DNA from: Anaerolineae bacterium
Lineage (GTDB): Bacteria; Chloroflexota; Anaerolineae; Aggregatilineales; J027
DNA: 32,076 nt
Reading direction: 5' to 3'
Assembly (NCBI GenBank): GCA_021463865.1
Contig: JAJTXY010000043.1
Span: forward strand, 1 to 32,076
The notes below the pieces were generated by a model. That model was not told where the DNA came from. It did not search any database and saw nothing but the letters and a program-made list of their open reading frames with translations. Both the position numbers and the translations under genes were made by a program. This document shows, in pieces, positions 839 through 27,196 of this stretch. How positions within the stretch are numbered: the first letter of the stretch is position 1; each line of letters begins with the position of its first letter.

Positions 839-846
839 AAACATTC

Positions 847-880: not shown

Positions 881-955
881 CGATTTGTTTTGAAGATTTA
901 CAGGTGCATAATCACATCGGAAGAACCCAAGAGGCAAGTGAAAGGTCCAGATGAA

Positions 956-2678: not shown

Positions 2679-4868
2679 TTATCGCAAAAAGGCTTCGTGC
2701 AACCCACCATCCACGCTGAACACCTGCCCAGTTGTCTTGCTAAAGGCCGCACTAATTAACAAATAGGCGATCTCGGCTTGATCTTCAGGTGTGATGGCTT
2801 GTTTGGTTAGAGTGCGTTGGGCGTAGAAATTGGCGAGTTTAGAGCGCAATGCTTCCGTACTTTCACTTTCATCATGGTCTATATTATATTTGACTAATGA
2901 GCTAATCACTCGGTCGCGTGGGAACATCGTACTACCCTCCACCACCGTCGCTGGGGCAAGGCCATTGACCCGAATCAGAGGGGACAATTCCATTGCCAAT
3001 TCCCGCACCAAATGGTTAGCGGCGGCCTTGCTGGTGTCATAGGCCAACGAGCCTTTCTTAGAAACAGCGGCATTAACACTGGTCGTCAATACCAAGCCAC
3101 CCCGCAACCCCTGTGCCTTCCAAATAGGCCATGCTTCATCTGCCACGATATAACCACCCATAACATTAACATCAAACGTAAAACGCCATTTCTCATCCGG
3201 AATATGCCCTTCTTTGTCCGGCGGCACGAATACCCCGGCAGTGACAATCACATCATCCAGCCCGCCATAGGCCTGTAAAACGGTTTGGTAGAATTGACGT
3301 ACACTCTCACGTTTGGTAATGTCTACAGCTAGCCCAATCGCTGGCCCACATCCTGAAATACCTGTTCCTGCAACTCCAATGCCCATCCCATATTTGACGG
3401 TTAGCTCATTGGCAGTGGTTTCGGCTGAGGCCAAATCCAAATCGGCACACACCACATGCGCACCCTCTTTGCCAACTCGCTGGGCAACCGCCTTACCAAT
3501 GCCACTGCCTGCACCAATCACCACCACCACCCGCCGCGCTAAGGTGGCTTCGGGGGGCATCCGGCGCAGTTTAGCTTCTTCTAACAGCCAGTATTCAATA
3601 TCAAAGGCTTCTTGGCGGGGCAAAGCCACATAGTGACCAACGGCCTCTGCACCACACATAACATTGACCGCATTGCTATAGAATTCCGCCGTCACCCGCG
3701 ATTCACTCTTGTTTTTGCCCCATGCCACCGCGCCGATCCCCGGTATCAAAATTACACTGGGGTTGGGGTCACGCATGGCAGGCGAATCAGGTCGTTTGCA
3801 CGCTTCATAGTATGCGGCGTAATCCAGACGATATTGTTCAATCCCTACCGTCAATTTTTGTATCAAGGCGGCGGCATCTTCGGCTTGTGGATTCCATTCC
3901 ACATACAAGGGCTTGATCTTCGTCCGTAAGAAATGGTCGGGGCACGAAGTCCCTAATTCTGCTAACCGTGCGGCATCGTGGCTGTTGACGAAGCGCAGCA
4001 TAGCATCAGTGGCCTGAATCGTGCCGATAAACCGATTCTTCTGCGAGACCAAGCCGCGCAATTGAGGCAGAATTTCGCCAAGTACCTTATTACGCTGTTC
4101 CTCGGTAAGGGACTGATATTTAACCCCGCCAAAGACGGCCTTATCATGTTCAGCCAGATAACGGGCCGCTTTTTCGATGAGGGTCAGGGAGAGTTCATAA
4201 CATTCCTTATCATCATTAGCCCAATTAATCAGGCCGTGTCCCCCCAAAATGATGCCTTTGATGCCGGGGTGCTGCGCGATGGTCGCCTGCAATTTCAGCC
4301 CGAGATCGAAGCCGGGGCGCTGCCAGTCCACCCAAACGACCTCATCCCCATAGATGGCTTTGGTCAGGGCCTTGCCCTCGCTGCACGCTGCAATCGCAAT
4401 CACGGCGTCGGGGTGGGTATGATCGACATGCTTGTAGGGGACAAAGGCATGAAGCGGAGTATCAATCGAAGTCGCCGCCGGGTTGAGATTAAACGTGGTA
4501 TGTGGATACATACCAACCATTTGATCTTCAATCGGCGTCTTGACCCCTTTCACTTCCGCCGCGCCATAGATGCCTTGCAGGGCCATCAACTTCGACATAT
4601 ACAGCGAGGCGAAATTGGTGCGTTTGGCGGTGCGAAGATCACCCCCCGATCCCTTGACCCACATCACCTCAACCTGTTCCCCAGTTAACGGGTCGGTCAT
4701 CATAATTTTGGAGGACGTATTGCCTCCGCCTGTGTTGGTGATGCGCTGGTCACTGCCCAAGATATTGGAGCGATAGACCAGCCGATCAACCGAGTCAAGT
4801 GTGGCGGCGTGGGCATCATCCCACAGATAATTCACATGACGGTATTCGTTAGGGCGATAAACAGACAT
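2679..4868 (-). CDS. Bifunctional rhamnulose-1-phosphate aldolase / short-chain dehydrogenase
   Basis: This is a fused enzyme of the RhaEW (YuxG-like) type. The N-terminal half (about residues 1-430) is a class II metal-dependent aldolase that splits L-rhamnulose 1-phosphate into dihydroxyacetone phosphate and L-lactaldehyde. His ligands are visible in HVDHTHPD (near 149) and GGHGLIN (near 211). The C-terminal half (about 440-729) is an SDR dehydrogenase with the NAD motif GAGSGIGKA (near 448) and the catalytic Tyr610/Lys614 pair in YDTSKAA; it is expected to oxidise lactaldehyde. The length of 729 aa is normal for the fusion. A glycine-rich stretch (GMGIGVAGTGISGCG) sits between the Rossmann strands. 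The start is supported by AAGGGA six bases upstream. It is the last gene of the rhamnose operon, 12 bases after the tandem aldolase. I see no clear terminator after it before the tRNA promoter. Confidence 0.93.
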   Translation of the reverse strand: MSVYRPNEYRHVNYLWDDAHAATLDSVDRLVYRSNILGSDQRITNTGGGNTSSKIMMTDPLTGEQVEVMWVKGSGGDLRTAKRTNFASLYMSKLMALQGIYGAAEVKGVKTPIEDQMVGMYPHTTFNLNPAATSIDTPLHAFVPYKHVDHTHPDAVIAIAACSEGKALTKAIYGDEVVWVDWQRPGFDLGLKLQATIAQHPGIKGIILGGHGLINWANDDKECYELSLTLIEKAARYLAEHDKAVFGGVKYQSLTEEQRNKVLGEILPQLRGLVSQKNRFIGTIQATDAMLRFVNSHDAARLAELGTSCPDHFLRTKIKPLYVEWNPQAEDAAALIQKLTVGIEQYRLDYAAYYEACKRPDSPAMRDPNPSVILIPGIGAVAWGKNKSESRVTAEFYSNAVNVMCGAEAVGHYVALPRQEAFDIEYWLLEEAKLRRMPPEATLARRVVVVIGAGSGIGKAVAQRVGKEGAHVVCADLDLASAETTANELTVKYGMGIGVAGTGISGCGPAIGLAVDITKRESVRQFYQTVLQAYGGLDDVIVTAGVFVPPDKEGHIPDEKWRFTFDVNVMGGYIVADEAWPIWKAQGLRGGLVLTTSVNAAVSKKGSLAYDTSKAAANHLVRELAMELSPLIRVNGLAPATVVEGSTMFPRDRVISSLVKYNIDHDESESTEALRSKLANFYAQRTLTKQAITPEDQAEIAYLLISAAFSKTTGQVFSVDGGLHEAFLR

Positions 4869-6229: not shown

Positions 6230-7639
6230 TTAGTCATTCCAATCGTCTGTATTTTGCGGCACATAAGTCTTAGTGAGACCCATATTCGCTAATAATTGAC
6301 GGGCCTCGCGCAGGCTACCGATTTCACCTTGCGCCATCAATTGCACTACTGCATTGCCTAACACGGTTGCTTCAATTGGCCCGGTCACCACTGGTTTTCC
6401 TGTGGCATCGGCGGTCAATTGATTAAGCAGTTCGTTTTGTGTACCCCCACCTACAATATGAATCACTTCGACAACCTGCCCTGAAATGGCTTGCAAGCGT
6501 TCAATCACGGTGCGATATTTAAGGGCCAAACTTTCCAATACGCACCGCACCACCGCACCAATCGAATCCGGTATGGGTTGTTGATGCTCGGCACACCAAT
6601 CCCGAATATGTTGTGGATGGTCGCCGGGAGCTAAAAAGCGTCCATCGTCCACATCCAATATGGAACGCAGTGGTGCGGCTTGTTTCGCCATTTCGACCAA
6701 CTTGGCATAGCTGTACTCTTGACCCTGTGCTGCCCATGTTGCCCGACACTGTTGGATAATCCACAGACCCATCACGTTTTTCAGCAAGCGATACGTCCCT
6801 GCTACCCCGCCTTCATTCGTGACGTTGGCCTCAAACGATTCATCCGTAATAACTGCGTGCTCAACTTCTAATCCGACCAAACTCCATGTGCCACTGCTGA
6901 TATAGGCATAGTTCGCTTTTTGCGTCGGGACAGCCGCCACCGCGCTGCCGGTATCATGGGTGGCAGGGGCGATCACAGGAATTCCTTCATAAGTCCCCAT
7001 TTTTGTCCCCGGTGGCACAATTTCGGGCAGTATCTTGGTTGGAATACCCAAGCGACTGAGCATGTCATTGGCCCACTGACCGCTGCGGGGATTCAGCATC
7101 TGCGTGGTAGTGGCATTGGTAAATTCGCAGACCTTGACCCCCGTCAGCCAATAATTCAGCAGGTCGGGGATGGTCAAAAACGTCTGGGCAATCTCCAGCA
7201 ATGGCAATTGCGATTCGACCAAACTGAGCAATTGATAGAGCGTGTTAATCGGCATAAATTGGATGCCCGTCTGCTCAAATATCTCACGTTGGGGGACTTT
7301 GGCAAAAGCGACTTCCATCATGCCATTGGTACGGCTGTCGCGGTAACATACCGGATTGGAAATGAGGCTGCCCCGTGCATCTAACAAGCCAAAATCAATG
7401 GCCCATGTATCCACACCGAGACTGGCGGGGTGATGCTTTTTACCTAGCTCAATACCCTGCTGAATACTTCGCCACAGATGTAAAATATCCCAGTGCATCG
7501 TGCCACGCACAAGTATTACGGGATTGGTGAAGCGATGTAATTCCTCTAAATCAAGCCGTGTTCCATCAAAATGTGCCGCCATTATACGGCCCGATTCTGC
7601 CCCCAAATCCACTGCCAGCACCGTTTTTCGTGCGGTCAT
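6230..7639 (-). CDS. rhaB: L-rhamnulokinase
   Basis: RhaB phosphorylates L-rhamnulose to L-rhamnulose 1-phosphate with ATP in the cytoplasm. It is an FGGY-family sugar kinase of 469 aa, close to the usual length of about 480. The N-terminal phosphate motif AVDLGAESGR (9-18), the MHWDILHLW segment, GVDTWAIDFGLLD, the THDTGSAVAAVP motif and the C-terminal ADATGKPVVTGPIEATVLGNA are characteristic of rhamnulokinases rather than of general FGGY kinases. It starts 11 bases after the rhaA stop, with GAGGA lying within the end of rhaA, which suggests translational coupling. Its neighbours supply the substrate (rhaA) and use the product (the aldolases). Nothing is truncated. Confidence 0.96.
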   Translation of the reverse strand: MTARKTVLAVDLGAESGRIMAAHFDGTRLDLEELHRFTNPVILVRGTMHWDILHLWRSIQQGIELGKKHHPASLGVDTWAIDFGLLDARGSLISNPVCYRDSRTNGMMEVAFAKVPQREIFEQTGIQFMPINTLYQLLSLVESQLPLLEIAQTFLTIPDLLNYWLTGVKVCEFTNATTTQMLNPRSGQWANDMLSRLGIPTKILPEIVPPGTKMGTYEGIPVIAPATHDTGSAVAAVPTQKANYAYISSGTWSLVGLEVEHAVITDESFEANVTNEGGVAGTYRLLKNVMGLWIIQQCRATWAAQGQEYSYAKLVEMAKQAAPLRSILDVDDGRFLAPGDHPQHIRDWCAEHQQPIPDSIGAVVRCVLESLALKYRTVIERLQAISGQVVEVIHIVGGGTQNELLNQLTADATGKPVVTGPIEATVLGNAVVQLMAQGEIGSLREARQLLANMGLTKTYVPQNTDDWND

Positions 7640-7650
7640 GGTTGCTTGCT

Positions 7651-8925
7651 CTATCCTCGCTGTGTCAAAACATTTTTCTCATACGCAGCGATTTTATCCA
7701 TAAAGGCCATTCCAACAAGCACATTCTGTTGATAGCAGTAGTAATCCCACACTGCACCAAAAGGCAGTCCTTTCAGTTCTTCCATCAATGCCAAGCGTGC
7801 CGCGAAATTACCCTCTTGTTCATATTGGCGGAGAAGGGGTCGAGGTTCTAATAGCGCCGATAAAAGGGCACGCAGCGCATTCCGTGTCCCAATCACCCAC
7901 GCCGCAATACGATTGATGCTGGCATCAAAAAAATCGAGACCAATATGCACCCGTTTCAAAAAGTCACCCCGCACGATTTCTTGCATAATGGCAGCAAGGT
8001 CGTCGTTCCAGATGACCACATGATCGCTATCCCAACGTACACCGCGACTGACATGCAGCAGGATTTCATCCAAATAGAGCAGGGTTGAAGAAATCTTATC
8101 CGCGATGCTTTCGGTGGGATGAAAATGGCCCGAATCTAAACAGAGCAGCGTCCGATTGGTGACCGCATAGCCTAAATAAAATTCGTGTGAGCCAACCACA
8201 TAACTTTCCGACCCGATGCCAAATAATTTGCTTTCGACGGCATCAAGGTTATGCTGTGGATTTAATTTCTCAGTGAATACCGCATCTAGGGCATTTTTGA
8301 GCCGTTCACGTGGGCCAAGTCGGTCAGCCGGCAAATCTTTATAGCCGTCTGGTATCCAGACATTGGTGACACACGGCGTCCCTAGTTCTCGGCCAAAATA
8401 TGCTCCAATACGACGGGTGGCAATACAGTGGTCAATCCAAAATTGACGAATGGCCGGGTCTGGATGTGAGAGGGTCAAGCCATCATCTGCCAACGGGTGC
8501 GAAAATAGGGTAGGGTTGAAATCAATTCCGTGACCATTGGTTTTGGCCCAATCCATCCACCCAGCAAAATGTTCTGGTCGAATATCAGTGCGCTCAACTT
8601 TTTGGGTTGTTTCCAAATAGATTGCGTGCAGGTTCAGGCGATGCTGACCGGGGATTAAGCTGTAAGCCATGTCCAAATCACGGCGGAGTTCATCGGCGGT
8701 GCGGGCTTTGCCGAGATAATTGCCTGTCGTCATCAGGCCGCCCCCCAAGCCACGATCCGGGTCTTCAAAACCGCCAACATCATCGCCTTGCCAGCAGTGC
8801 AGGCTAATGGGGATGGTCTTCAATTGAGCCAGTGCCGTGTCGGTATCTACCCCAAGTGCGGCATAGCGTTCCTTCGCCAAGTGATAGGCCTGTTCCAGTT
8901 GAGAATCGCTAGGAGTCATTATCAT
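7651..8925 (-). CDS. rhaA: L-rhamnose isomerase (RhaA type)
   Basis: RhaA converts L-rhamnose to L-rhamnulose, using a TIM barrel and divalent metal ions. At 424 aa it matches the enteric RhaA family along its length: [15 protein letters not shown] near the N-terminus, [66 protein letters not shown] (metal Asp pair) and [22 protein letters not shown]. This is the E. coli-type enzyme, not the RhaI type often paired with aldolase/dehydrogenase fusions. The start codon overlaps the rhaM stop as TAATG, implying coupled translation; a second in-frame ATG two codons later is an alternative start. Confidence 0.96.
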
Positions 8926-9248
8926 TAATCCAGATGGAAGACTTCTTCCAGTTCAATAAAGAGTTGATCGGGATGGGCGCCTTCGGGAATTTCAAAATAG
9001 GGACTCATCATATCCTGCCAGCGTTGGTTGACCTCGGTCTGGGCCATCCCCGCCTGTGCTGCTTGTAAGGAAATTGGCGTCTCAAAATAACCAAATAAGA
9101 GGCCATCCGAGCGCATGAACAAAGAATAATTGTGCCAACCTGTTGCCCGTAAGGCCGCTTGCATTTCCTCCCAAACATGTTGATGGTGTTTTTTATAGTC
9201 TTCAATAAGTTCTTGTCGTACTTTTAAGACAAAGCCAACCCGTTTCAT
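8925..9248 (-). CDS. rhaM: L-rhamnose mutarotase
   Basis: RhaM interconverts the alpha and beta anomers of L-rhamnose so that the isomerase receives its preferred form. The protein is 107 aa (E. coli enzyme about 104) with the family marks [19 protein letters not shown] containing the expected active-site His, [18 protein letters not shown] and the C-terminal [15 protein letters not shown] precedes the ATG at a good distance. It is separated from rhaS by 121 bases with two hairpins and overlaps rhaA by one base. Confidence 0.95.
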
Positions 9249-9369: not shown

Positions 9370-10473
9370 TTAGTTCGCTTCTTCGGTGGCTTCGACTTCT
9401 GGTTCGCCCTCTTCATCGCCACCCGCTGCCCATTCTTCAAGGTTGTCAGCATTGTAAACGCTGAATGGCCCCATCAGAACACGCAGTCCATCTTCACGGT
9501 TCGGGTCGGCTTCGATGGTATACGTTCCCATCCGGCCCGCCTCAAACACAACCCCTTCTTCGGCTTCCATTGCGCCGGAGGCCAACAGATAGGACACATA
9601 GTAGGTCAGATAACCCAAATCTTTGAAGCTCCACAGCGCAAATTCTTGGGAGCAGCCATTTTCAACGAATTCTTGCATTTCAGAGGGCAGGCCAAGACCT
9701 GATACCGCAACTTCACCGCACAGTTCTTCGTCTTGCATGGCTTTAGCCGCTGCCGCAATACCAACGGTAGTGGGGGCCATAATCAGTTCAAGATCAGGAT
9801 AGCTGTCTACCAAACCGAGGGCTTCGTTGTAGCTGTCATCGGGGTCGTCATTGCCATACACAATGTCTACCAACTCGAGGTTGGCATACTGCTCGTCTTC
9901 TTCCAACAGGGTCTGCATGGCTTCAATCCACGCATTTTGGTTGGAGGCATCGGGTGTGGCGGAGAGGATAGCAAATTGACCACCATCTTCGCCGAGAATA
10001 CTGAGGGCCATATTTGCCATAACGGACCCAACTTCGGTGAAGTCTACCTGAGCGATGAACAGGTCTTCACCCTCAGGTGAAACAGGTGAGTCCCATGTCA
10101 CAACCGTGATGTCCTCTTCCATCGCTTTGGTGGTGGAGGGCAGCAGTTGTTCATAGTCGTTGGCAGAAATCATAATTGCATCCACTTCTTGGGTAATGGA
10201 GGCTTCAATGATTTCGATTTGACCGGGGATGGCATTATCGGGCGTCGGGGCGTTGAAAATCAATTCGCCGGGATTTTCCAATTCCTCATGAGCTTCGATT
10301 GCGCCTTCATGAGCCTCATCAAACACGGCATTTCCCAGCGTTTTGGGCAGCAGCACCATATTGAGTTCAACACCGGGTTCTGCTTTGATGGGTTCGGGGT
10401 CTTGTGCCCGCACCAATCCACCCGTCAGGGTCAACAGTACGAGGGCAACCAGCAACAATTGTAATTTTCGCAT
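9370..10473 (-). CDS. rhaS: Rhamnose ABC transporter substrate-binding protein
   Basis: This is the extracytoplasmic sugar-binding protein of the importer (Peripla_BP_4 type, 367 aa). A Sec signal peptide is visible: KL at the start, a hydrophobic core [11 protein letters not shown] and a V-R-A/Q cleavage site after A23. There is no lipobox Cys, so it is not an obvious lipoprotein. The mature part has the fold signs of sugar-binding proteins ([47 protein letters not shown]). It is very acidic and ends in a Glu-rich tail ([14 protein letters not shown]). AGGAG eight bases before the ATG supports the start. It follows the permeases after 29 bases. Rhamnose specificity comes from the rhaM-rhaA-rhaB context; the name follows the rhizobial system and is not the E. 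coli AraC-type RhaS. Confidence 0.9.
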
Positions 10474-10502: not shown

Positions 10503-11543
10503 TTATTGGTGAACACTGACCTGCGATTTTGGCTCTGTCGCACCTCCTTTATTTAAGATTCTGGATATTGCCGTAAACAGACGAGGTACTAATCGTTGGA
10601 GTATTTGAATTAGATTGGGTACCAATACCGATAGGATCAACAACAAGCCAATCACGCTTGTCTGAGTGTTGCCGTCTACATTGGAAAGTGACATGCCATT
10701 GCGTAAATTCAGCACCACCAGCAGGGACAGACCCACACCAATCATCGTGCCTGTGCCACCAAAAATGCTGACGCCACCCAACAGCACAATCGTGATGATG
10801 TCGAGTTCAAACCCTTCCGCAGCATTGGCCCGAACATTGCCCAAACGGGCTGCATAAAACGCGCCAGCAAGGGCTGCTATGAGGCCAGATGCCATAAAGA
10901 TGGTGACTTTGACCTGCTTGGCATTAATCCCGGCATATTCCGCCGCTGCTCGATTGTTGCCGATGGCATAGACATAGCGCCCAAATACGCTGTACTGCAA
11001 AATCACAAACCCCAAAATGAATAGGGCGATAAACACAAATATCGTGATATGGAACGGCCCGATAATGCCATCTTGCCCTAGTGATGTGAACCAACTTGGG
11101 AAATCACCGACTGAACGATCTTCCAACAAGATACGTGCCACACCGCGATACCCAATCGAGCCTGCTAGGGTCACAATTAGGGAGGGAATGCCCATATAGG
11201 CCGCAAAAAGGCCATTCAGCAACCCACAAACCACACCGACAAAAAGAGCCAGCACAAAACCCGCTGCAATCGGCCATCCAGCATCATACCGTTCTGCCAA
11301 GACCGTTGCTGAAAGACCCATGACTGAAGCCACCGAAAGGTCAATTTCGCCATTGATAATCACAAAGGCCATAATCAGAACGACCAGCGACTTCTCAATC
11401 GAAAGGTGAAAGATATTGGCAAGGTTATTCAGGTCAAGGTAATGCTCGGATAGGCGCAGATTAGCAACCACAACCGCGCATAGTATGATGAACATGAGGG
11501 CTTCCCAGCTTTTCAGCCATGCCCATCGTTTAGACTGCTGCAT
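10503..11543 (-). CDS. rhaQ: Rhamnose ABC transporter permease (second)
   Basis: This is an inner-membrane permease of the BPD_transp_2 (ribose/rhamnose importer) family, 346 aa, with a hydrophobic profile of about nine or ten segments. The family stretches INGEIDLSVASVMGLSA, GIPSLIVTLAGSIGYRG, YAIGNNRAAAEYAGIN and IVLLGGVSIFGGTGT are present. It overlaps the end of the first permease by 14 bases and pairs with it to form the channel. I use the rhizobial order T-P-Q to name it; which permease is P and which is Q cannot be proved from sequence alone. Confidence 0.9.
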   Translation of the reverse strand: MQQSKRWAWLKSWEALMFIILCAVVVANLRLSEHYLDLNNLANIFHLSIEKSLVVLIMAFVIINGEIDLSVASVMGLSATVLAERYDAGWPIAAGFVLALFVGVVCGLLNGLFAAYMGIPSLIVTLAGSIGYRGVARILLEDRSVGDFPSWFTSLGQDGIIGPFHITIFVFIALFILGFVILQYSVFGRYVYAIGNNRAAAEYAGINAKQVKVTIFMASGLIAALAGAFYAARLGNVRANAAEGFELDIITIVLLGGVSIFGGTGTMIGVGLSLLVVLNLRNGMSLSNVDGNTQTSVIGLLLILSVLVPNLIQILQRLVPRLFTAISRILNKGGATEPKSQVSVHQ

Positions 11544-12567
11544 GGGGTTCCTCCGGCATCCGTTGAAGCTCCGTTCTTGACCACCACGGCGTCAGTTGAT
11601 TAATCAAGATGCGATCTACCGTCACCGCGATAATAATGCACAAGCCCAACAAGGCATCTTTCCAAAATTCGTTGATATTCATGCGAATCAGGCTTTGCTC
11701 AATCGTGCCGATCAGGATCGCGCCGAGCATCGCGCCGATCACTGTACCAGAGCCGCCGAGGATATTGACCCCTCCAACGACTACGGCTGCGACCACCTGT
11801 AACTCCATTCCACGTGCCGCATCTACTGTAATCGTGCCAAAACGCGCCAGATAGAGCATTCCACCTAGACCCGCCATCGCACCACACATGGTGAAGGCCA
11901 GTGTCACCATGCGTGGCGCACGAATACCCGCTAGGTTCGCGGCCTCTGGGCTTGACCCGATGGCATAGAGACGGCGGCCAAGCGAGGTATAGAGCAGCAA
12001 AAAGAAAAACACAATGACCGCCACCAATGCGATGGCTGGCAGTGCCCGTAGTTCGTATTCGCCGAATTTGAGTATGCTTTCTTGGGGGAGTTCCTTAATC
12101 CAGTCAGGAAGTTGGCGTGTGGCAACCGATTTAGAGTCGGAATATTCAACTAGTACCCCACGATAAATTGCCATTGTGCCGAGTGTCACGACAATCGCTG
12201 GGATACGTCCATAGGCCACCAAAAGGCCGTTAATCAAACCCATGCCCGCCCCGATACCCATTGCCAGCACCGCCAGCATTAAGGGGGCCATGTCTTCATT
12301 TTTGCTGACATACCGCCCCACATAATAGGCGGTGAATCCGACAATTGACCCTACCGACAAATCCACATTGCGCGTCAGCACAACCATCGTTTGCCCCACA
12401 GCGACAAGAGTAATCAGGGCCACCGTCGAAGAAATACGATTAAACGTGCGCGGGGTATAGTAATTGTCTATTTGATTCCCAAAAATCAACACCACAATAA
12501 TCAGAATAATCACAAGGCTGAATTCACGCAGCCGTTGTAAGGGCACCCATCGTCGTATTCTATGCAT
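11530..12567 (-). CDS. rhaP: Rhamnose ABC transporter permease (first)
   Basis: This is an inner-membrane permease of the same family as its neighbour, 345 aa, with about ten hydrophobic segments. Family stretches include [47 protein letters not shown] and [17 protein letters not shown]. It overlaps the ATPase gene by 8 bases and the second permease by 14 bases, so the importer genes are tightly coupled. Two different permeases imply a heterodimeric channel, as in rhizobial RhaPQ. Confidence 0.9.
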
Positions 12568-14083
12568 GTGCCACCGCGCTTTCTGCCATATTCAGTGTCT
12601 GCCCAATTGCAGCCGCCATAATGATTTCCTGCGTGGCTTCGCGCCGTTCAAAAATGCCCATTTGCTGGCCCTCACGCATCACCAAAATCCGGTCACTCAT
12701 CGCTAAGACTTCGGGCAAATCTGATGAAATCATCAAAATCGCCATGCCCTGTTGCGCCAGTTGGTTAATGAGGCGATGTACTTCCTGCTTCGCCCCAACA
12801 TCAATCCCGCGTGTGGGTTCATCGAGAATGAGTAGGTGCGGCTTAGTATTCAGCCACTTACTCAGCACGACTTTTTGTTGATTGCCTCCCGACAATTTGC
12901 CCGCTGGCATAGATAGAGAGGAGGTACGAATCGAAAGCTGCTGGCGATACTGTTCGGCAGTTGTCACTTCTTTGCCACGCTGTACCATACCCAATTGATT
13001 ACGATAATTTTTTACACTTGGCAGCGAAATATTTGCCATCAGCGACATCGGCAGCACCAAGCCATGCTGACGCCGATCTTCCGGCACATACACCATGCCC
13101 ATGCGCGTTGCTTGTTTAGGAGAATGCAGATGAACTTCTTTGCCGAGATAGGTAATGTGTCCATGCTGGGCCGGGGCGATGCCAAAGAGAGCGAGGGCCA
13201 CATCGGTGCGACCCGCCCCAACGAGACCTGCCAATCCCAACACTTCACCCGCGTGCAATTCAAAATTGATATGGTGGAAACGGGGTTCGCGTGTCAAATC
13301 CTTGACGGACAGCACCACACCGCCGCGTGGACTGGGTTCTTTCACAAAAATATCACCGATTTCGCGCCCGACCATATCTCGAATGGCCTGCTCTGGCGTA
13401 ACCTCAGCTACCGGAGCGGTTGAGATAAATTGACCGTCGCGGAACACAGTCACGCGATCCGCGATTTCAAACACCTCATCCAATCGGTGACTGATAAACA
13501 AAATCGCCACACCTGCTTTTCGCAGATTTCGGACGAGGCCAAATAGCTGCTTGACCTCATGGATAGACAGCGAGGCGGTAGGTTCATCCATAATCAGCAC
13601 CCGCACATCCATTGAAATCGCTTTAGCAATCTCGACGGTTTGTTGGGCCGCCAAAGGCAAACCGCGTGCTAATGCCCGAACATCCAGTGCCACACCCAAC
13701 TGCGCCAGCACTTTCTCGGCATCACGATAGAGTTTGCCCCATCGCACCAGCGGGTTACGCCGCTGATGGCTGATAAAGATATTTTCGGCGATGTTTAAAT
13801 CAGGAAAGACCAGCGGTTCTTGATAGATGGCGGCAATGCCATGTTTTTGGGCTTGGGCGGAATTGTGCAGGGAAATCAGGCGGCCTTGCAGCAAAATTTC
13901 GCCACTGTCGGGTTGATAGATGCCCGTCATGATTTTGATGAGGGTGGATTTGCCCGCCCCATTTTCGCCGAGCAGGGCATGAACTTCACCCGGATAGAGG
14001 CTCAATGAAACGGAACTGAGCGCCTTTGTTGCGCCGAACTGCTTGGAGACATCCCGAATTTCTAATAACGGATCAGCAGTCAT
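12560..14083 (-). CDS. rhaT: Rhamnose ABC transporter ATP-binding protein (double ABC domain)
   Basis: This ATPase drives rhamnose import. At 507 aa it has the two fused ABC domains of the CUT2 class. Domain 1 has Walker [10 protein letters not shown] (about 38-46), a Q-rich signature in [11 protein letters not shown] and Walker [11 protein letters not shown]. Domain 2 has the degenerate Walker [10 protein letters not shown] typical of this class, the signature [15 protein letters not shown] and Walker [13 protein letters not shown]. The asymmetry implies one main catalytic site. It is the first gene of the operon, 205 bases from the divergent regulator. The Shine-Dalgarno (AAGAG close to the ATG) is weak. 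The symbol follows R. leguminosarum; E. coli RhaT is an unrelated symporter. Confidence 0.92.
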
Positions 14084-14125
14084 CTCTTAAAAATCCAAAG
14101 TGTTTTTTTCCTAAACTCATTTCAC

Positions 14126-14154
14126 ATTCTAATAGTGATTCTCGAAAATTGCAA
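14126..14154 (-). promoter_or_regulatory. Promoter of the rhamnose operon
   Basis: On the minus strand TTGCAA (14149-14154, four of six matches) and TAGAAT (14126-14131, five of six) are separated by exactly 17 bases. One operator half-site (14138-14145) lies in the spacer, so a bound repressor would block polymerase. The -10 box is 43 bases from the first start codon. Confidence 0.65.
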
Positions 14155-14228
14155 CTTTTTTCGAGAATTTTCCGCAAAATTCGAGAATAATTGAGAATTA
14201 TCGAGAATAATTTGACCCCAATTCTCGA
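14138..14228. promoter_or_regulatory. Operator array of the divergent rha region
   Basis: The half-site ATTCTCGA or its complement TCGAGAAT occurs at 14138-14145 (ATTCTCGA), 14161-14168, 14181-14188, 14201-14208 (TCGAGAAT) and 14221-14228 (ATTCTCGA); an imperfect copy TTGAGAAT is at 14191-14198. The same-direction copies start at 14161, 14181, 14191 and 14201, an exact 10-bp phase that puts them on one face of the helix. The two outer copies are inverted relative to the inner four, and each falls in or beside a candidate promoter. The adjacent DeoR-type regulator is the natural candidate to bind here. Confidence 0.75.
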
Positions 14229-14244
14229 AATCTCGGTGTATACT
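14212..14244 (+). promoter_or_regulatory. Candidate promoter of the DeoR-fusion regulator
   Basis: TATACT at 14239-14244 is a good -10 box, 44 bases before the regulator ATG. The only -35-like box, TTGACC at 14212-14217, is 21 bases away, which is long. The half-site at 14221-14228 lies between the two boxes, consistent with autorepression if this promoter is used. Confidence 0.35.
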
Positions 14245-14288
14245 AAAAGAAATTGCGATTCCAAAATGTAGAATATTGATGGGCAGAT

Positions 14289-16013
14289 ATGGAAAAATCG
14301 GCAAGTGCATACGAACGTCATCAAACGATTTTGCGCTTGGTGCAAGAATATTCGAGTGTGCGCGTGGCGCAGTTGGCTGAGTATTTGGATGTCTCAGAAA
14401 GCACCATCCGTAATGATTTGGAGGCATTGGGTGAGCAGGGTCAATTGGTGCGCATACGCGGTGGGGCAGTTGCCAAAGTTGGTCAACCTCAGACTGGTCT
14501 AGTCTCCTCCTACCTTGCCCAGAAAGTGCTTGAAAAAGCCGAAGAAAAAAAGTGGATTGCGCGATGGGCCGCCGGGATGATCGAAGACGGCGACGTGATT
14601 ATGTTTGATGCCAGTTCCACCGTTTTCCATATCGCCTCATTCCTCGCTGACCGCCGTAATTTGACCGTCTTCACCAATGGCATTGATGTTGCCAGACTGT
14701 TGGCAAAAGAACCCTCTAACACGATTATCATTTTAGGGGGGATTCTGCGCCCGAATGGGAATTCCATCACAGGCTCGATTAGTGAGCAGGTGCTACAGGA
14801 TTACCGCATCCAGACGGCCTTTGTGTCATGCAGCGGCTTCACCCCCGAAATGGGCTTTTTTGAAATGGACTTGCAAGAGGCCAAAATGAAAAGCCTCATG
14901 CTGCAAGCCGCCCAAAAACGCATCGCTCTGCTAGATTCCAGCAAAATCGGGCAGGTGGGTCTGACGCGCTTTGCCTCACTCGATGAAATGCACTACTTCA
15001 TCACCGACGAACAAATCAGCCGCGAGACGATTGACTTCATCCGCTCGACCAACACCCACGTCGTGATTTGCAGTGAACAAACCACCCGTTCCTATATGTC
15101 CACCAATGGCGAACGGCGTTATTTTCGGGTGGGGTTCGGCAATCTTTCGGAAAACACCCCCTTCAGCCGCGATGTGCGCCGCAGTCTACAAAAAGCCGCC
15201 GAGGAAAGTAAACAGATTGAACTCATCGTCGCCGATAATCAGCTTGACCCACAGATAGCCCTTCAAGTTGCCGACGAACTATTGTCCCAAGACCTCGATT
15301 TGGTCATTGAATACCAGATTGATGAGAGCATCGGCAACCTAATTGCCCACAAATTTCAGCAGGCCCATATCCCCGTGATTGCAGTAGATATTCCGATGGT
15401 GGGGGCACGTTATTTTGGTGTCAACAATTATGTAGCAGGGCAAATCGCGGGTGTAGAACTGGCTAAGGCGATTGAAACCCGCTGGCAGGGTCAATTCGAT
15501 TTTGTGATTGTGGTCGAACAAAAACGGGCAGGCCAGCTTCCAGCCCTACGGATTAAGGGGCAGATGGATGGTTTGCAGCAGCGATTGAATACCATCCCAG
15601 CGGAAAAAATCATCTGGGTGGATTCCGACAATACCAGCGAGGGTCTGTATCCTATTATGGAAAAAACCCTAAACGCTCTACCGCCTCATTCACGGTGCGC
15701 GGTGATTTGTTTTAATGATGACGCCGCCATCGGGACCTTGCGTGTCGCCAGCGATATTGGCTGCGAGGAGAATTTATTGATTGTCGGGCAAGGCGCTGAT
15801 CGTCGTATTCGTGCCGAGATGCGAAAGGAACAGTCCAGTATCGTGGGGTCAACCGCCTTCCGCCCCGAAGATTATGGGCCAGCCCTGACTCGTTTGGCGC
15901 TGGATATTTTGGAAGGGATTGAAGCTCCTCTTGCCACCTATACCGAACATTTTTTTGTCAGCCCTGCCAATGTAGATGAATATTACCCAGAGGCGCTTGA
16001 AGATAGCGTTTAA
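14289..16013 (+). CDS. DeoR-type repressor fused to a periplasmic-binding-protein-like sugar domain
   Basis: This is a 574-aa transcription regulator, about twice the usual DeoR length of around 250. Residues 5-60 form a DeoR helix-turn-helix (VAQLAEYLDVSESTIRNDLEAL). Residues about 75-240 form the DeoRC sensor domain, which normally binds a phosphorylated sugar (FDASSTVFHIA, LTVFTNGIDVA, ILGGILRPNGNSITG, LDSSKIG). From about residue 278 to the end is a RhaS/RbsB-like sugar-binding fold (FRVGFGNLSENTPFSRDV, IPVIAVDIPMVGARYFGVNNY, CAVICFNDDAAIG, GQGADRRIRAE). No signal peptide or membrane segment is visible, so it acts in the cytoplasm. It diverges from the rhamnose operon and probably represses it and itself through the operator array. 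Ligand identity is inferred: free rhamnose for the second sensor, a phosphorylated intermediate for the first. Confidence 0.9.
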   Translation: MEKSASAYERHQTILRLVQEYSSVRVAQLAEYLDVSESTIRNDLEALGEQGQLVRIRGGAVAKVGQPQTGLVSSYLAQKVLEKAEEKKWIARWAAGMIEDGDVIMFDASSTVFHIASFLADRRNLTVFTNGIDVARLLAKEPSNTIIILGGILRPNGNSITGSISEQVLQDYRIQTAFVSCSGFTPEMGFFEMDLQEAKMKSLMLQAAQKRIALLDSSKIGQVGLTRFASLDEMHYFITDEQISRETIDFIRSTNTHVVICSEQTTRSYMSTNGERRYFRVGFGNLSENTPFSRDVRRSLQKAAEESKQIELIVADNQLDPQIALQVADELLSQDLDLVIEYQIDESIGNLIAHKFQQAHIPVIAVDIPMVGARYFGVNNYVAGQIAGVELAKAIETRWQGQFDFVIVVEQKRAGQLPALRIKGQMDGLQQRLNTIPAEKIIWVDSDNTSEGLYPIMEKTLNALPPHSRCAVICFNDDAAIGTLRVASDIGCEENLLIVGQGADRRIRAEMRKEQSSIVGSTAFRPEDYGPALTRLALDILEGIEAPLATYTEHFFVSPANVDEYYPEALEDSV

Positions 16014-16016: not shown

Positions 16017-16064
16017 TCTCGAAAATTGATGCTAGGTGACAATCACTTATATATCATTTGTCAC
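16017..16064. promoter_or_regulatory. Putative control region upstream of hypA
   Basis: TCTCGAAAATTG at 16017-16028 is identical to 14140-14151 in the rha operator region. It is followed by a perfect 7-bp inverted repeat, GTGACAA (16036-16042) and TTGTCAC (16058-16064), across 15 AT-rich bases. A weak promoter match (TTGATG at 16026, 16-base spacer, TATATA at 16048) overlaps both. It may be the hyp operon promoter with an operator. The protein that would bind is unknown. Confidence 0.35.
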
Positions 16065-16120
16065 TGGTTGCCGCCCCTTCGGAGCACTATACTGGTTTCC
16101 ATCTGAACCAATTTCAACAG

Positions 16121-16136
16121 AGGGGAATTGTCCCCT
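16121..16136 (+). promoter_or_regulatory. Hairpin covering the hypA ribosome-binding site
   Basis: AGGGGA (16121-16126) pairs perfectly with TCCCCT (16131-16136) around the loop ATTG, ending one base before the hypA ATG. The left arm is the only Shine-Dalgarno-like sequence for hypA. When folded it would hide the ribosome site; a translational switch is inferred, not shown. Confidence 0.55.
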
Positions 16137-16137
16137 A

Positions 16138-16512
16138 ATGCACGAACTTTCGATTGCCCAAAATCTTGTCGAGATTGCCAACACCGCCGCCCAACGAGCT
16201 AATGTGCAGCGGGTGACAGCGGTACGATTGCAATTAGGAGCGCTGTCGGGGGTGGTTAAAGATTCACTCCTTTTTTGTTATGACATCGCCAGTGCAGGTA
16301 CGCTCCTTGAAGGCGCTAAACTCCTGATTGAAGAACTGCCCGTCATCATTTATTGTCCACAATGTCAGCAAACCGTTGCCTTAGAGACGGTACAAGCCTT
16401 TTGCTGCCCGGTCTGTGGCACATTCAGCAGTGATATTCGACAAGGCCGCGAATTGGAAATCCTATCATTGGAGGCCGAAGAAGACGAAAATGAGCACCCC
16501 TCGCATCCTTGA
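16138..16512 (+). CDS. hypA: Hydrogenase nickel-insertion protein HypA
   Basis: HypA delivers nickel, with HypB, to the large subunit of NiFe hydrogenases. The correct start is the ATG at 16138, because the protein must begin MHE, with His2 as nickel ligand; upstream codons add a non-family extension. The 124-aa protein has the MHELSIAQNLVEIA N-terminus, the KDSLLFCYDIASAGTLLEGA segment and a zinc site of C73/C76 (CPQC) and C90/C93 (CPVC). Its last 23 bases overlap hypB. It is first in the six-gene hyp operon, preceded by a hairpin over its ribosome site. The C-terminal tail is acidic. Confidence 0.95.
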   Translation: MHELSIAQNLVEIANTAAQRANVQRVTAVRLQLGALSGVVKDSLLFCYDIASAGTLLEGAKLLIEELPVIIYCPQCQQTVALETVQAFCCPVCGTFSSDIRQGRELEILSLEAEEDENEHPSHP

Positions 16513-17179
16513 AATTCGACGTGGTGTGTTGGAAAAAAACGATATTCTCGCCCATAACTTACGCGATCAGTTTAATGCAGCCCATGCCTTGGTCATCAAT
16601 CTAGTTTCCAGCCCCGGTGCAGGCAAAACCGCCCTTTTGGAAGATACCCTGCGTCGTCTCATCCAAGCAGGGCACCATCCTGCCGCGCTGGTGGGTGATC
16701 TTGCCACTGATAATGACGCCAATCGGCTGGCCCGCAGTGGTGCGCCCGTTCGCCAAATCCAGACAGGCGGCAACTGCCATCTCGAAGCCGATATGATTAG
16801 CACTCACCTGACCGATTGGGGCTTGGATTTAAGCCAAATCGAATTTCTGTTTATCGAAAACGTGGGCAATCTTGTTTGTCCTGCCAGTTATGATTTAGGG
16901 GAACATGTACGAGCAGTGGTGCTGTCCGTCACCGAGGGCGAGGACAAACCCCTCAAATATCCGACCATGTTTCATTCGGCGGATATAGCCGTCTTGACCA
17001 AAATGGACATTGCGGTGGCGGTTGAGTTTGATAAGCCAGCCGCCCTTGCCAATATCCAGTCGGTGCATCCCGGCATGATGGTGTTGGAAACCTCCGCCAA
17101 GACGGGCGCGGGGATGGATAACTGGGTTCAACATCTCATCACTTGTCGGGAAAACGCATTTGCCCTAGTCACCAAATAG
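16490..17179 (+). CDS. hypB: Hydrogenase nickel-incorporation GTPase HypB
   Basis: HypB is a SIMIBI-class GTPase that powers nickel transfer from HypA into the hydrogenase large subunit. I use the ATG at 16490 (229 aa), since the longer frame starting at 16415 only translates hypA out of frame. The P-loop is SSPGAGKT (40-47). The G-domain metal site is C96-H97 (GGNCHLEADM) with C130 (NLVCPASYDLGE), and TKMDIA (about 170-175) is the guanine-specificity motif. There is no His-rich or CxxCGC N-terminus, so this version lacks the nickel-storage tail of some HypB proteins. Confidence 0.95.
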   Translation: MSTPRILEIRRGVLEKNDILAHNLRDQFNAAHALVINLVSSPGAGKTALLEDTLRRLIQAGHHPAALVGDLATDNDANRLARSGAPVRQIQTGGNCHLEADMISTHLTDWGLDLSQIEFLFIENVGNLVCPASYDLGEHVRAVVLSVTEGEDKPLKYPTMFHSADIAVLTKMDIAVAVEFDKPAALANIQSVHPGMMVLETSAKTGAGMDNWVQHLITCRENAFALVTK

Positions 17180-17213
17180 ATTTTTGTCGAAAAACCGAGC
17201 AGCAAGGCTCATC

Positions 17214-19520
17214 ATGTCCACAACATCGTCCGAACGCCAACGTTTACGTCTGACCATTCAAGGTATTGTACAGGGGGTCGGCTTTCGGCCCTTTGTGTAT
17301 GGCCTAGCCGAACAATATTGCCTTGCGGGGCATGTCGGTAACAATGGCGAAGGTGTGTTTATCGAGGTTGAAGGCACGACCGAAAATCTAGCCCAATTTC
17401 AATCCGTCCTGCTGAATTCGCCCCCACCGTTGGCCCGTCTCGATGCCGTGCAGGTCGAATCTATCGCCCCTGCCAATGACCACGATTTTGTAATTGTCGC
17501 CAGCCAAGCCAGCGATCAACTAACAGCCCTCTTGCCACCCGACATTGCCATTTGCGACGACTGCCTGCGGGAACTGCTCGATCCCACCAATCGCCGCTAT
17601 CACTATCCGTTTATCAACTGCACCAACTGTGGCCCGCGTTTCACCATCATTCAGGGTATTCCGTATGACCGCCCTAAGACCACAATGGCAAGTTTCGAGA
17701 TGTGCCCCGATTGCGCCGCCGAATATCATGACCCGCTGAATCGGCGTTTTCATGCCCAGCCGAATGCCTGCCCCGTCTGCGGCCCGCATTTGTGGTTTCA
17801 ATATCATTCGGGTGAGATCATCAACGGGGACGACGCCATCACCCTAACCAAACAAGCCTTTGCCAATGACCAGATTATCGCCGTCAAAGGGATTGGTGGG
17901 TTTCATCTGGCGTGTGATGCCCGCTCCGACAACGCCCTCCAAATTTTACGCGAACGCAAGGGACGGGTGGATAAGCCGTTTGCCATCATGGTGCGTGATC
18001 TGGAAATGGCGCATCATCTTGCCGAGATTAATCCTGCCGAGGCCGCCCTGTTGCAGAGTCTCCAGCGTCCAATTGTCCTGTTGAAAAAACGCTCGCCCAA
18101 CACCCTTTCGGAACTGGTCGCGCCGGGAAATCAGACGGTGGGGGTAATGCTGGCCTATGCCCCCCTGCATTATTTGCTGCTGGATGATTACCCCCTTGTC
18201 ATGACCTCTGGCAATTTCAGCGGCGAACCAATCTGCAAAGATAATGAGGACGCCCTGCACTATCTCGCCCCGCTGGTAAATGGCTTTTTGCTGCATAACC
18301 GTCCCATTCATATTACCTGTGATGATTCGGTGCTGCGGATTCATGACCAACACGAACTGCCCATCCGTCGTTCGCGCGGCTATACCCCCTTTCCGGTCAA
18401 ACTCCCCTTTGATGCGGCGACGGTCTTGGCGACAGGCGGGGAACTCAAAAACACCTTTTGCCTGACCCATCATCGGCACGCCTTTCTAAGCCAGCATATC
18501 GGCGATATGGAAAATATCGAAACCTTGAATGCCTTCACCGCCTCAGTAAGTCATTTTTCGACGCTATATGGCTTGCAACCGGAAGCCCTCATTTGTGACC
18601 GGCATCCCAATTATCTGACGACCACTTGGGCCAATGAATATGCCAGCGCCCATCATCTCCCATTGATTCAAGTGCAGCACCACCACGCCCATATCGCTGC
18701 CGTCCTAGCCGAACATGCCGACGCGGGACAATCCCCCATCATTGGCGTTTGTTTGGATGGCACGGGGTATGGCACCGATGGCGCGATTTGGGGTGGTGAA
18801 TTTTTGCTGGCGGATTATGCCCATTTTGAACGGGTGGCCCATCTTAAATACGTTCCGTTGGCGGGGGGTGATACGGCGGTCAAAAAACCCTATCGCGTCG
18901 CATTGGCCCATCTATGGTCAGCCGGTATTGCGTGGGATGATGGGCTACCTCCAGTTGCGGCTTGCCCCGCCGTCGAACAGCGCATTTTGGCACGTCAATT
19001 TGAGAGCGGCTTACACACCGTCCCCGCCAGCAGCATGGGTCGCCTATTTGATGCTGCCGCTGCCCTGATCGGGGTGCGACAGGCCGTCTCGTATGAAGCT
19101 CAAGCCGCGATTGAACTAGAAAGCATGGCTGCTCTGACGGATGAGAGCTACCCCTTTGCTTTCCAATCCACCCCCGATGCTCCCATCCAAATTGATGCCA
19201 GTCCGGTGTTTCGGGCAATGGTAGATGATTTGCGGCGGGGGGCGGCGCAAAATCTCATGGCGGGCAAATTCCATCGCGGAGTGGCCGATATGATTTTGAA
19301 AATTTGTGACTTGTTACGTCAAAAAACAGGCATTCATCGAGTTGCCTTGAGTGGGGGGGTGTTTCAAAATGTATTGCTACTCGGCCTGACCAGCCACGCC
19401 CTTACCCAAAGTGGTTTTGAGGTGCTGGTACATCGGGCTGTGCCGCCGAATGATGGTGGGTTGGCTTTAGGGCAGGCCGTCATCGGGGCTAAACAAATTC
19501 AAATGAACCGCAAGGAGTAG
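17214..19520 (+). CDS. hypF: Carbamoyltransferase HypF
   Basis: HypF converts carbamoyl phosphate to carbamoyl-adenylate and transfers the carbamoyl group to the C-terminal Cys of HypE, the first step in making the cyanide ligands. The start is the ATG at 17214 (AAGG upstream, 768 aa); a TTG at 17184 adds ten residues without family support. Domains in order: acylphosphatase (10-95, IQGIVQGVGFRPFVYG), two zinc fingers (C114/C117/C136/C139 and C164/C167/C186/C189), a YrdC-like domain (about 205-390, IIAVKGIGGFHLACDA, MTSGNFSGEPIC) and a Kae1-like domain (about 400-768, QVQHHHAHIAAVLAEH, GVCLDGTGYGTDG, ALSGGVFQN). All parts are intact. Confidence 0.96.
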   Translation: MSTTSSERQRLRLTIQGIVQGVGFRPFVYGLAEQYCLAGHVGNNGEGVFIEVEGTTENLAQFQSVLLNSPPPLARLDAVQVESIAPANDHDFVIVASQASDQLTALLPPDIAICDDCLRELLDPTNRRYHYPFINCTNCGPRFTIIQGIPYDRPKTTMASFEMCPDCAAEYHDPLNRRFHAQPNACPVCGPHLWFQYHSGEIINGDDAITLTKQAFANDQIIAVKGIGGFHLACDARSDNALQILRERKGRVDKPFAIMVRDLEMAHHLAEINPAEAALLQSLQRPIVLLKKRSPNTLSELVAPGNQTVGVMLAYAPLHYLLLDDYPLVMTSGNFSGEPICKDNEDALHYLAPLVNGFLLHNRPIHITCDDSVLRIHDQHELPIRRSRGYTPFPVKLPFDAATVLATGGELKNTFCLTHHRHAFLSQHIGDMENIETLNAFTASVSHFSTLYGLQPEALICDRHPNYLTTTWANEYASAHHLPLIQVQHHHAHIAAVLAEHADAGQSPIIGVCLDGTGYGTDGAIWGGEFLLADYAHFERVAHLKYVPLAGGDTAVKKPYRVALAHLWSAGIAWDDGLPPVAACPAVEQRILARQFESGLHTVPASSMGRLFDAAAALIGVRQAVSYEAQAAIELESMAALTDESYPFAFQSTPDAPIQIDASPVFRAMVDDLRRGAAQNLMAGKFHRGVADMILKICDLLRQKTGIHRVALSGGVFQNVLLLGLTSHALTQSGFEVLVHRAVPPNDGGLALGQAVIGAKQIQMNRKE

Positions 19521-19525
19521 TAACC

Positions 19526-19783
19526 ATGTGCTTAGGGGTTCCCGGTCAAATCAAAGAAGTGTATGAGCTAGAGGGTGTTCGCATGGGCAAGGTCAATTTC
19601 GGTGGCATCGTCAAAGAGGTCTGCCTTGAATATGTCCCCGAAGCTGTTGTGGGTGATTACACCATCGTACATGTCGGCTTTGCCATCACTCGCCTTGATG
19701 AAGCATCCGCACTCGAAACACTGAAAATGTTCGAGGAGCTAGGCGTTCTGGATGAAGAACTCAACCCGGAACACCTAGAGTGA
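19526..19783 (+). CDS. hypC: Hydrogenase assembly chaperone HypC
   Basis: HypC is a small chaperone that, with HypD, carries the Fe(CN)2CO unit to the hydrogenase large subunit. The 85-aa protein starts MCLGVPGQI, whose Cys2 is essential after Met removal. [19 protein letters not shown] and [17 protein letters not shown] are the usual beta-barrel stretches. The perfect AAGGAG and short spacing to hypF and hypD support the start and an operon. HybG-type paralogues look alike; the position between hypF and hypD favours HypC. Confidence 0.96.
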
Positions 19784-19805
19784 ATTTTTTGAAGGAACAT
19801 CCCCA

Positions 19806-20915
19806 ATGAAGTATCTCACTGAATTCCGCAACAATGACCTCGTGCAAAAGCTATTCCATGAGATTCACCAAATTACGACCAGACCTTGGGCAATGATGGA
19901 AGTCTGCGGCGGGCAGACCCACTCGATTATTCGCAATGGCATAGACCAACTGCTGCCGCCTGAAATTGAACTGATTCACGGCCCCGGCTGTCCGGTCTGT
20001 GTCACCCCACTGGAAACGATTGACAAAGCCCTTGCCATTGCCGCCCAACCGAATGTCATTTTTTGTTCTTTTGGCGATATGCTGCGTGTCCCCGGCAGTG
20101 ACCATGACCTTTTTGCCGTCAAAAGTCAGGGCGGGGACATCCGTATCGTCTATTCACCCCTCGATGCGCTCAAAGTGGCTCGTGATAATCCCGATAAGCA
20201 GGTGGTCTTTTTCGGCATTGGCTTTGAAACCACCGCCCCCGCCAATGCCCAAGCGCTAGTGGTAGCCAAAAAGCAGGGACTCAAAAATTTCTCGATGTTG
20301 GTTTCACATGTGCTTGTGCCACCAGCCATCGAAGCTCTAATGCAGTCCCCTACCTGTCGTGTGCAGGCATTTTTGGCAGCGGGGCATGTATGCAGTGTCA
20401 TGGGTTACTGGCAGTACGAACCCCTTGCTGAAAAATATCACGTCCCGATTGTGGTCACGGGCTTCGAACCGCTGGATGTGTTGAACGGCATTTACCATGC
20501 GGTTCTGCAATTAGAAGCGAGTCGGCACGAAGTTGAAAATGCCTATTCACGGGCCGTGCAGCGCGAAGGCAATCTCCCCGCCCAAAAGGTTATGCAAGAA
20601 GTGTTTGAAGTGTGTGACCGGAAGTGGCGTGGCATTGGCATGATCCCGCAAAGTGGATGGCAGTTAAACGCGGCTTATCGGGACATGGACGCCGCCATCC
20701 GTTTCCAAGTCGGTGATATTCGCACACAGGAATCCAGCATTTGCCGCAGTGGGGATGTGTTGCAGGGTCTTATTAAACCCCATCAATGCCCCGCCTTTGG
20801 CAAAGAATGCACCCCATCCAAACCACTTGGCGCGACGATGGTCTCTAGCGAAGGGGCGTGCGCGGCTTATTATAATTATGGTCGTTTCATTGAACATGAA
20901 CAGGTAGCCCCATGA
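19806..20915 (+). CDS. hypD: Hydrogenase formation protein HypD
   Basis: HypD is the iron-sulfur scaffold on which the Fe(CN)2CO group is assembled together with HypC. The 369-aa protein has C34 in [11 protein letters not shown] and C62/C65 in [11 protein letters not shown], plus [11 protein letters not shown]. The C-terminal cysteines ([29 protein letters not shown]) bind the [4Fe-4S] cluster. GAAGGA precedes the ATG. Its stop overlaps the hypE start as ATGA, a sign of coupled translation. Confidence 0.97.
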
Positions 20916-24848: not shown

Positions 24849-24892
24849 CATGCGGTCTATAACAAGCCGCTATATTGAAAGGTATTGGAATA

Positions 24893-26182: not shown

Positions 26183-26197
26183 ACGGGACAAGTCACC

Positions 26198-27175: not shown

Positions 27176-27196
27176 ATTGCACAGTAGGACACTCAT

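Follow-up and report, generated by a model that had tools for sequence, protein, structure and literature searches.

A DeoR-family regulator with an added sugar-binding-protein domain at a rhamnose locus in Chloroflexota

The window analysed here is a stretch of 32,076 nt from an Anaerolineae bacterium (Chloroflexota; order Aggregatilineales) and corresponds to one whole contig of a 4.9-Mb genome assembled in 59 contigs. It carries a regulator gene that is divergent from a rha operon running from position 14083 down to 2679, with a probable operator region in the interval between them (Table 1). The tandem class II aldolase-type protein encoded between RhaB and the RhaEW-type enzyme is also found in four loci of the same genus (L022-L025). 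Beside the operon, positions 53-2527 (plus strand) hold an rve integrase-core gene and a large serine recombinase, the latter CcrB-like by NCBIfam although far under the cut-off, and may represent a mobile element. Close behind the regulator and on its strand, positions 16036-21961 encode HypA, a CobW/HypB-type GTPase, HypF, HypD and an AIRS-type protein (as HypE), genes of hydrogenase maturation; the HypA match starts at residue 35 of the first ORF. Further on, a LacI regulator, a GH4 enzyme, a BadF-type ATPase and a GH20 enzyme (23832-29047, plus strand) look like a separate amino-sugar locus.

Table 1. Coordinates of features in the window and, where a locus label is given, in other loci
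Feature	Position	Strand	Basis or remark
Fused regulator gene, DeoR + DeoRC + sugar-binding-protein domain	14289..16013	+	574 aa, ATG start; full-length homologues
HTH_DeoR winged helix, residues 10-62	14316..14474	+	PF08220 E 6.7e-16, 58.2 bits vs cut-off 21
DeoRC sensor, residues 83-241	14535..15011	+	PF00455 E 2.2e-49, 167.9 bits, profile 2-160 of 160
Peripla_BP_4 sugar-binding domain, residues 286-543	15144..15917	+	E 1.1e-23, 84.5 bits vs cut-off 35.1
Probable operator region	14138..14229		TTCGAGAAT at 14138 (-), 14160 (+), 14180 (+), 14221 (-)
Sugar ABC ATPase (RhaT-type), first gene of divergent rha operon	12560..14083	-	Profile match
ABC permease (RhaQ by position)	10503..11543	-	Profile match
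ABC permease (RhaP by position)	11530..12567	-	Profile match
Exported rhamnose-type binding protein RhaS	9370..10473	-	TIGR02637 313 bits, under cut-off 342
L-rhamnose mutarotase RhaM	8925..9248	-	PF05336 107.5 bits; TIGR02625 68 bits, under cut-off 99.6
L-rhamnose isomerase RhaA	7651..8925	-	Over NCBIfam cut-off
Rhamnulokinase RhaB	6230..7639	-	TIGR02627, over cut-off
Double class II aldolase-type protein, 428 aa	4881..6167	-	Two PF00596 stretches
Bifunctional rhamnulose-1-phosphate aldolase/dehydrogenase (RhaEW type)	2679..4868	-	Over cut-off
Permuted regulator	L033:6573-8351	-
Permuted regulator	L034:5761-8172	-
Permuted regulators	L085-L092, L122
Permuted regulator of G530	L143:7427-9148	+
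ABC binding-protein gene of G530	L143:12147-13247	+	~3 kb downstream of the permuted regulator

The first-pass annotation had read the regulator as a DeoR winged helix followed by a full DeoRC sensor and a complete sugar-binding-protein domain. This three-domain architecture is confirmed by Pfam matches to HTH_DeoR, DeoRC and Peripla_BP_4, the last of which spans positions 6-256 of the 258 in its profile. With HTH_DeoR present, and DeoRC present with its motif positions kept, the protein is a member of the DeoR family, and its third domain departs from the family norm of about 250 aa ending after DeoRC. Its DeoRC is the sole match to that profile across its own genome (E 0.001), and a search of the regulator for a LacI-type HTH (PF00356) by Pfam gave no match at E 0.001. 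The best NCBIfam match is to AgaR (175 bits versus a cut-off of 260), and the protein falls below the cut-off of every equivalog among the NCBIfam matches listed. Because an AlphaFold2 model built from the regulator and four close relatives (five sequences) reached a mean pLDDT of 40.6 and could not be used, the fold of the third domain is taken from profile matches only. A profile made from 12 relatives of the binding part aligns with solved structures of sugar-binding proteins over almost the whole length (2ioy, E 1.1e-19), as expected from the earlier proposal of a binding-protein fold in the C-terminal half, and the best single-sequence matches in the PDB are to ribose-type and related sugar-binding proteins. 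The annotation had also recognised no characterised example of this architecture; our literature search, mainly of open-access papers, likewise found no description of a regulator with DeoRC and a binding-protein domain, although automatic domain-database listings may exist. The fused architecture is thus a variant of the DeoR family that is absent from the papers found.

The third domain had initially been described as RhaS-like and as a sensor of external sugar, and neither description holds. By BLASTP, it has no similarity to the RhaS encoded in the window (best E 0.89), and TIGR02637 (RhaS) is absent among the 14 families listed for the fused regulator; an origin of the added sensor from RhaS is therefore ruled out. 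Its closest relatives belong to another family of exported transporter binding proteins, which are about 40% identical to it. A gene for such a protein adjoins the fused regulator, in divergent orientation, in 14 of 30 loci examined, which suggests that a neighbouring transporter gene was captured. A simple hydropathy scan found neither a signal peptide nor a membrane segment in the regulator, whose peak 19-residue hydrophobicity is 1.24, compared with 2.05 for the N-terminus of RhaS and 2.83 for a permease. As the protein begins with its HTH and has no strongly hydrophobic window, the sugar sensed by the added domain is probably cytoplasmic. We infer that the third domain descends from the binding protein of a transporter, made cytoplasmic through fusion behind a repressor. 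Four stand-alone relatives of the sensor domain, each of about 300 aa, have no evident signal peptide and are perhaps cytoplasmic (L037:3399-4307, minus strand; L038:1257-2147, plus strand; L039:3711-4601, minus strand; L043:6695-7573, minus strand); two of these lie near GAF histidine kinases.

Five positions of the third domain, F292, D367, I368, R421 and N476, are invariant in all 28 fused proteins aligned, and the same letters are invariant in a 12-row alignment that adds the neighbouring binding protein and three stand-alone relatives. Through the 2ioy alignment, we take these positions to be equivalent to F15, D89, R90, R141 and N190 in the pocket of ribose-binding protein. The aligned pocket departs from that of RbsB in having Ile at Arg90 and Gln at Asp215, and because its letters differ from those of ribose-binding protein the ligand cannot be read off the pocket.

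Homologues of the fused regulator were counted at three taxonomic depths. Within the order, 34 of 154 genomes match at E 1e-80 and at least 28 span both halves; each of these 28 has both halves in one stop-free frame. The class was sampled with 298 genomes, of which 40 match at 1e-90 and at least 37 span both halves, including a genome in a single contig (G737); in the phylum at least 4 of 400 drawn genomes do so, with the source genome among them. All of the fused counts are lower bounds, with the best nine (order), four (class) or three (phylum) candidates scored per genome. A scan of genome contigs with the fused regulator gave four loci, three at 98% identity and one at 89%. On plasmids, none of 3292 matching records covers 80% of the regulator in one place. 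The proposal that a single regulator carries two sensors thus stands in so far as both domains are present with conserved sites, but the protein is one of a family dozens strong in the phylum and not a single oddity.

We also considered the DNA upstream of the fused gene, where the earlier annotation had named the interval 14138-14228 as DNA to be tested for binding. The repeats there are real: of the 32 kb in the window, only 14138-14229 contains TTCGAGAAT, in four copies, against a mean of 0.31 after shuffling. The upstream region carries TCGAGAAT direct repeats phased by 10 bp, one turn of the helix, with copies of GAGAAT at 14163, 14183, 14193 and 14203. When a two-repeat pattern taken from the array was searched against the source genome, the two best matches, with one mismatch each, were found here, and other matches have two or three. 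A scan of 14040-14320 returned two promoter-like sites versus 1.0 expected and no terminators.

To extend this analysis to other members, we applied a motif-free periodicity test to 27 fused genes, taking the 300 bp upstream of each, with first-order resampling of each sequence as the null. The mean z is highest at period 10 (3.14), followed by period 20 (2.25), compared with 0.71 or less at other periods from 5 to 19, and period 10 is the best in 15 of the 27 genes. No period-10 repeats were found within these 300 bp at G033 (z -1.6), G059, G324, G342 and G492, among others. At G033 a repeat array lies beyond the 300 bp, and only 2 of 200 resamples were as high, in a test for which the motif was chosen after viewing the sequences and the null was a first-order resampling of the sequence rather than an exact shuffle. 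The motif-free test also detects period-10 repeats upstream of the plain RhaR gene of Chloroflexus. The fused regulator therefore shares a trait of RhaR of Chloroflexales, in that it stands at rha genes and has direct repeats of 10-11 bp period upstream as a predicted operator.

As the neighbours of a regulator gene can point to the sugar that is sensed, we surveyed 30 fused loci from 28 genomes, namely the window and 29 others, in which gene types were assigned by BLASTP against the genes of the window; the further fused genomes of the class search lie outside this survey, and the regulator of one locus (G005) is cut by a contig end. Genes of rha type occur in 20 of the 30 loci, by isomerase, kinase or aldolase genes in six, by a RhaM-like mutarotase in 10 and by a RhaSTPQ-type transporter alone in four. 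In the 10 mutarotase loci this gene stands beside an isomerase of fucose/arabinose type, and six further loci have only such an isomerase, with or without transporter genes. The remaining four have neither gene type, and three of these reach a contig end beside transporter genes. The isomerases beside two more distant members (L031 and L077) are L-rhamnose isomerases that score over the NCBIfam cut-off, and the one mutarotase checked from the second locus type (L028) is RhaM by Pfam and, like that of the window, under the NCBIfam cut-off.

Homologues of the third domain outside the phylum have varied neighbours. In Acidisoma, the gene cluster around a 32%-identical binding protein also encodes L-rhamnonate dehydratase, a short-chain dehydrogenase and an amidohydrolase; the homologue in R. 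leguminosarum adjoins an 'arabinose isomerase', and that of Bradyrhizobium has no sugar genes beside it. Because of this R. leguminosarum neighbour and of the loci with only an isomerase or with neither gene type, some members of the family may have a different sugar as their ligand. L-rhamnose is nevertheless the commonest denominator across the loci, and from these gene contexts it is the most likely ligand of the added sensor. Nothing in the analysis points to DHAP, which the first-pass annotation had listed among the ligands to try.

Taken together, the adjoining rha operon and the phased repeats make the regulator a likely repressor of the rha locus, the role that had been proposed for it on first reading. 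Our preferred interpretation, to which we give a probability of roughly 0.6, is that it is a local repressor of the rha operon, and probably of its own gene, with two cytoplasmic sensors, of which the added one is most likely for L-rhamnose. Without sugar, an oligomer of the regulator would occupy the repeat array and block both promoters. L-rhamnose would enter through RhaSTPQ; as in Chloroflexus RhaR, DeoRC would bind what isomerisation makes of it (L-rhamnulose or the phosphate of this), and the incoming sugar, most likely L-rhamnose, would be bound by the added domain. Either sensor, or both together, would then bring about release from the DNA.

The ligand proposed for DeoRC is borrowed from Chloroflexus, where a published EMSA had RhaR bound to a 38-bp DNA that contains four repeats of TCGAAA type, and released by L-rhamnulose and not by L-rhamnose or D-glucose (PMC3870299). 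The RhaR gene that we found in the Chloroflexus genome encodes a plain DeoR in an open frame of 275 aa, without a third domain. In the DeoR tree, RhaR of Chloroflexus and Roseiflexus form a clade of their own (100/100), outside of which the fused regulator is placed, and because the two thus belong to different clades the transfer of this ligand would be indirect.

Conservation within the family bears on which of the two domains senses sugar. Mean column conservation over the 28 fused proteins is 0.634 for the HTH, 0.614 for DeoRC and 0.636 for the binding domain, compared with 0.275 and 0.365 for the linkers, and dN/dS against a 90%-identical relative is 0.020, 0.032 and 0.045 for these domains in the same order, compared with 0.239 for the linker of residues 67-82. 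A sensor in the binding domain alone, with DeoRC kept as an oligomerisation scaffold between HTH and sensor, would agree with a binding domain as conserved as DeoRC and with the five invariant pocket positions. We nevertheless think this unlikely, as the motif positions of DeoRC are strongly conserved (D102 and S109 in 27 of 28 proteins, T129, G150, G151 and G183 in all 28, and K201 in 26), its dN/dS is low, and the plain relative that has been tested answers to L-rhamnulose without a third domain (PMC3870299).

The opposite arrangement, with DeoRC as the only sensor and a binding domain that is carried as a passenger or has a structural role, is an improbable one. It would fit the function of Chloroflexus RhaR without a binding domain (PMC3870299) and the presence of a plain DeoR (G391) within the fused group, which also counts against the two-sensor repressor because it indicates that the extra domain can be absent. 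Against it, the dN/dS of the binding domain is 0.029-0.045 over two comparisons, its pocket positions are invariant and the domain is retained in dozens of genomes.

We consider it more doubtful still that the binding domain recognises a protein partner, such as the ABC ATPase or the permeases, and so reports transport activity rather than free sugar. The domain is of a kind that serves as a transporter component and lies near transporter genes in many loci, and in the case of MalT and MalK a transporter ATPase is known to control a sugar activator. The transporter of the window, however, has a dissimilar binding protein, so that a shared docking surface is not expected, and residues of the pocket are among the invariant ones. 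Finally, an assembly or gene-model artefact that joined two genes, conceivable as a misjoin since DeoR and binding-protein genes can adjoin (as in Agrobacterium) although nothing was found in its favour, is ruled out for practical purposes by the single stop-free frame through both halves in 28 genomes of the order, by the fusion in the one-contig genome of the class (G737) and by the low dN/dS across all three domains.

The history of the fused family may involve more than a single event. A tree of the DeoR parts places the 13 fused rows together (99/95), although the joining of G324 and G202 is flagged as long branches meeting and their places are unsure. This group includes the plain DeoR of G391 (94/81; L080:9985-10779, minus strand), and a tblastn search of the 19.9-kb locus of G391 for the third domain gave no significant match. 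G391 would represent either loss of the third domain or a remnant of the arrangement that preceded fusion. The tree of the binding domains, in which one row is extremely long, splits the fused domains; those of G342, G324 and G202 group with three exported binding proteins (96/98) and not with the other fused ones. The binding domain may therefore have been captured more than once, or exchanged, within the fused family. In Agrobacterium, for instance, a DeoR gene directly precedes a binding-protein gene, although the transporter is of peptide type.

A second lineage of DeoR proteins combines the same elements in another order. In its 11 members the HTH is followed by the body of a binding protein, then by the N-terminal part of that binding protein and finally by DeoRC. 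Such regulators occur in at least 10 of the 154 genomes of the order and in at least one, of the same class, of 400 drawn from the phylum, counts that are lower bounds with eight and three best candidates, respectively, scored per genome. The downstream ABC binding protein of G530 is 33-36% identical to the sensor body in most of the permuted regulators, so that here too the sensor is similar to the binding protein of a transporter close by; close relatives of this protein are encoded on the contig of the regulator, within about 5 kb, in G505, G526, G544 and G546. Compared with the G530 binding protein, each of the 11 permuted regulators has two matching stretches whose order is swapped, first the body (residues ~114-343, E 5.5e-33 to 2.2e-41) and after it the N-terminal segment (~58-101, E 2.8e-8 to 2.7e-5), the E-values being pairwise with composition correction off.

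Other searches with the N-terminal segment gave weaker signals. Two Pfam binding-protein families each match the segment in three of nine members (best E 0.0021), and a profile of the segment alone has no significant match among solved structures. In a sliding-window control, the profile score rose by 7.6 when the segment was placed at the front, and by the same amount or more, up to 20.9, with some windows of DeoRC. Two of the permuted proteins were included in the DeoR tree, and their DeoR parts group elsewhere, among plain DeoRs. These proteins apparently contain a natural circular permutation inside a repressor that is independent of the fusion in the window, judging from the sequence comparisons, and we found no description of a natural permuted binding protein in a repressor in the literature searched, which was mainly open-access. 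Whether Chloroflexota DeoR repressors have made an ABC binding protein into a second cytoplasmic sensor at least twice independently, once by appending and once by permutation and insertion, is in our judgement an evenly balanced question.

The usual account of DeoR and LacI-type regulators treats them as separate solutions that each have one sensor. If the proposed reading is correct, the fused proteins would be natural single-chain repressors that read both a transported sugar and a catabolic intermediate, and would offer ready-made two-input sugar sensors. The permuted form would likewise represent a natural counterpart to a design from biosensor engineering, and the two lineages together suggest repeated capture of transporter binding proteins as intracellular sensors. 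A conserved two-sensor family also permits a clean test: because the plain relative in Chloroflexus responds to L-rhamnulose but not to L-rhamnose (PMC3870299), the fused form is predicted to gain a response to L-rhamnose itself.

Repressors of the DeoR/GlpR type (AgaR, GlpR, SrlR, UlaR and others) align over their full length with residues ~6-260 of the fused regulator and are without its C-terminal domain of about 300 residues. LacI-family repressors and the GntR-type AraR have a cytoplasmic sugar sensor of Peripla_BP type fused to a DNA-binding domain; the fused regulator differs from these in that it has no LacI HTH and its binding-type sensor follows a second complete sensor, DeoRC. The binding proteins of sugar ABC transporters (RbsB type), among them the neighbour at L028, which is about 40% identical and has the same five pocket letters, differ from the fused regulator in that the latter has no signal peptide and is part of a DNA-binding protein. 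Engineered chimeras of binding proteins and DNA-binding domains likewise use a binding protein to give a repressor its sensor, although these are man-made and, as described in the part of the source at hand, have no DeoRC sensor (PMC6079105). RhaR of Chloroflexus aurantiacus (Caur_2290) resembles the fused regulator in its phylum, its rha target and its DeoR HTH and DeoRC, and its operator of about four repeats (PMC3870299) has a period of 10 in our analysis that is similar to the phased array upstream of the fused gene. Caur_2290 has no binding-protein domain and lies on the strand of its own rha genes, whereas the fused regulator carries the extra domain and is divergent from the rha genes.
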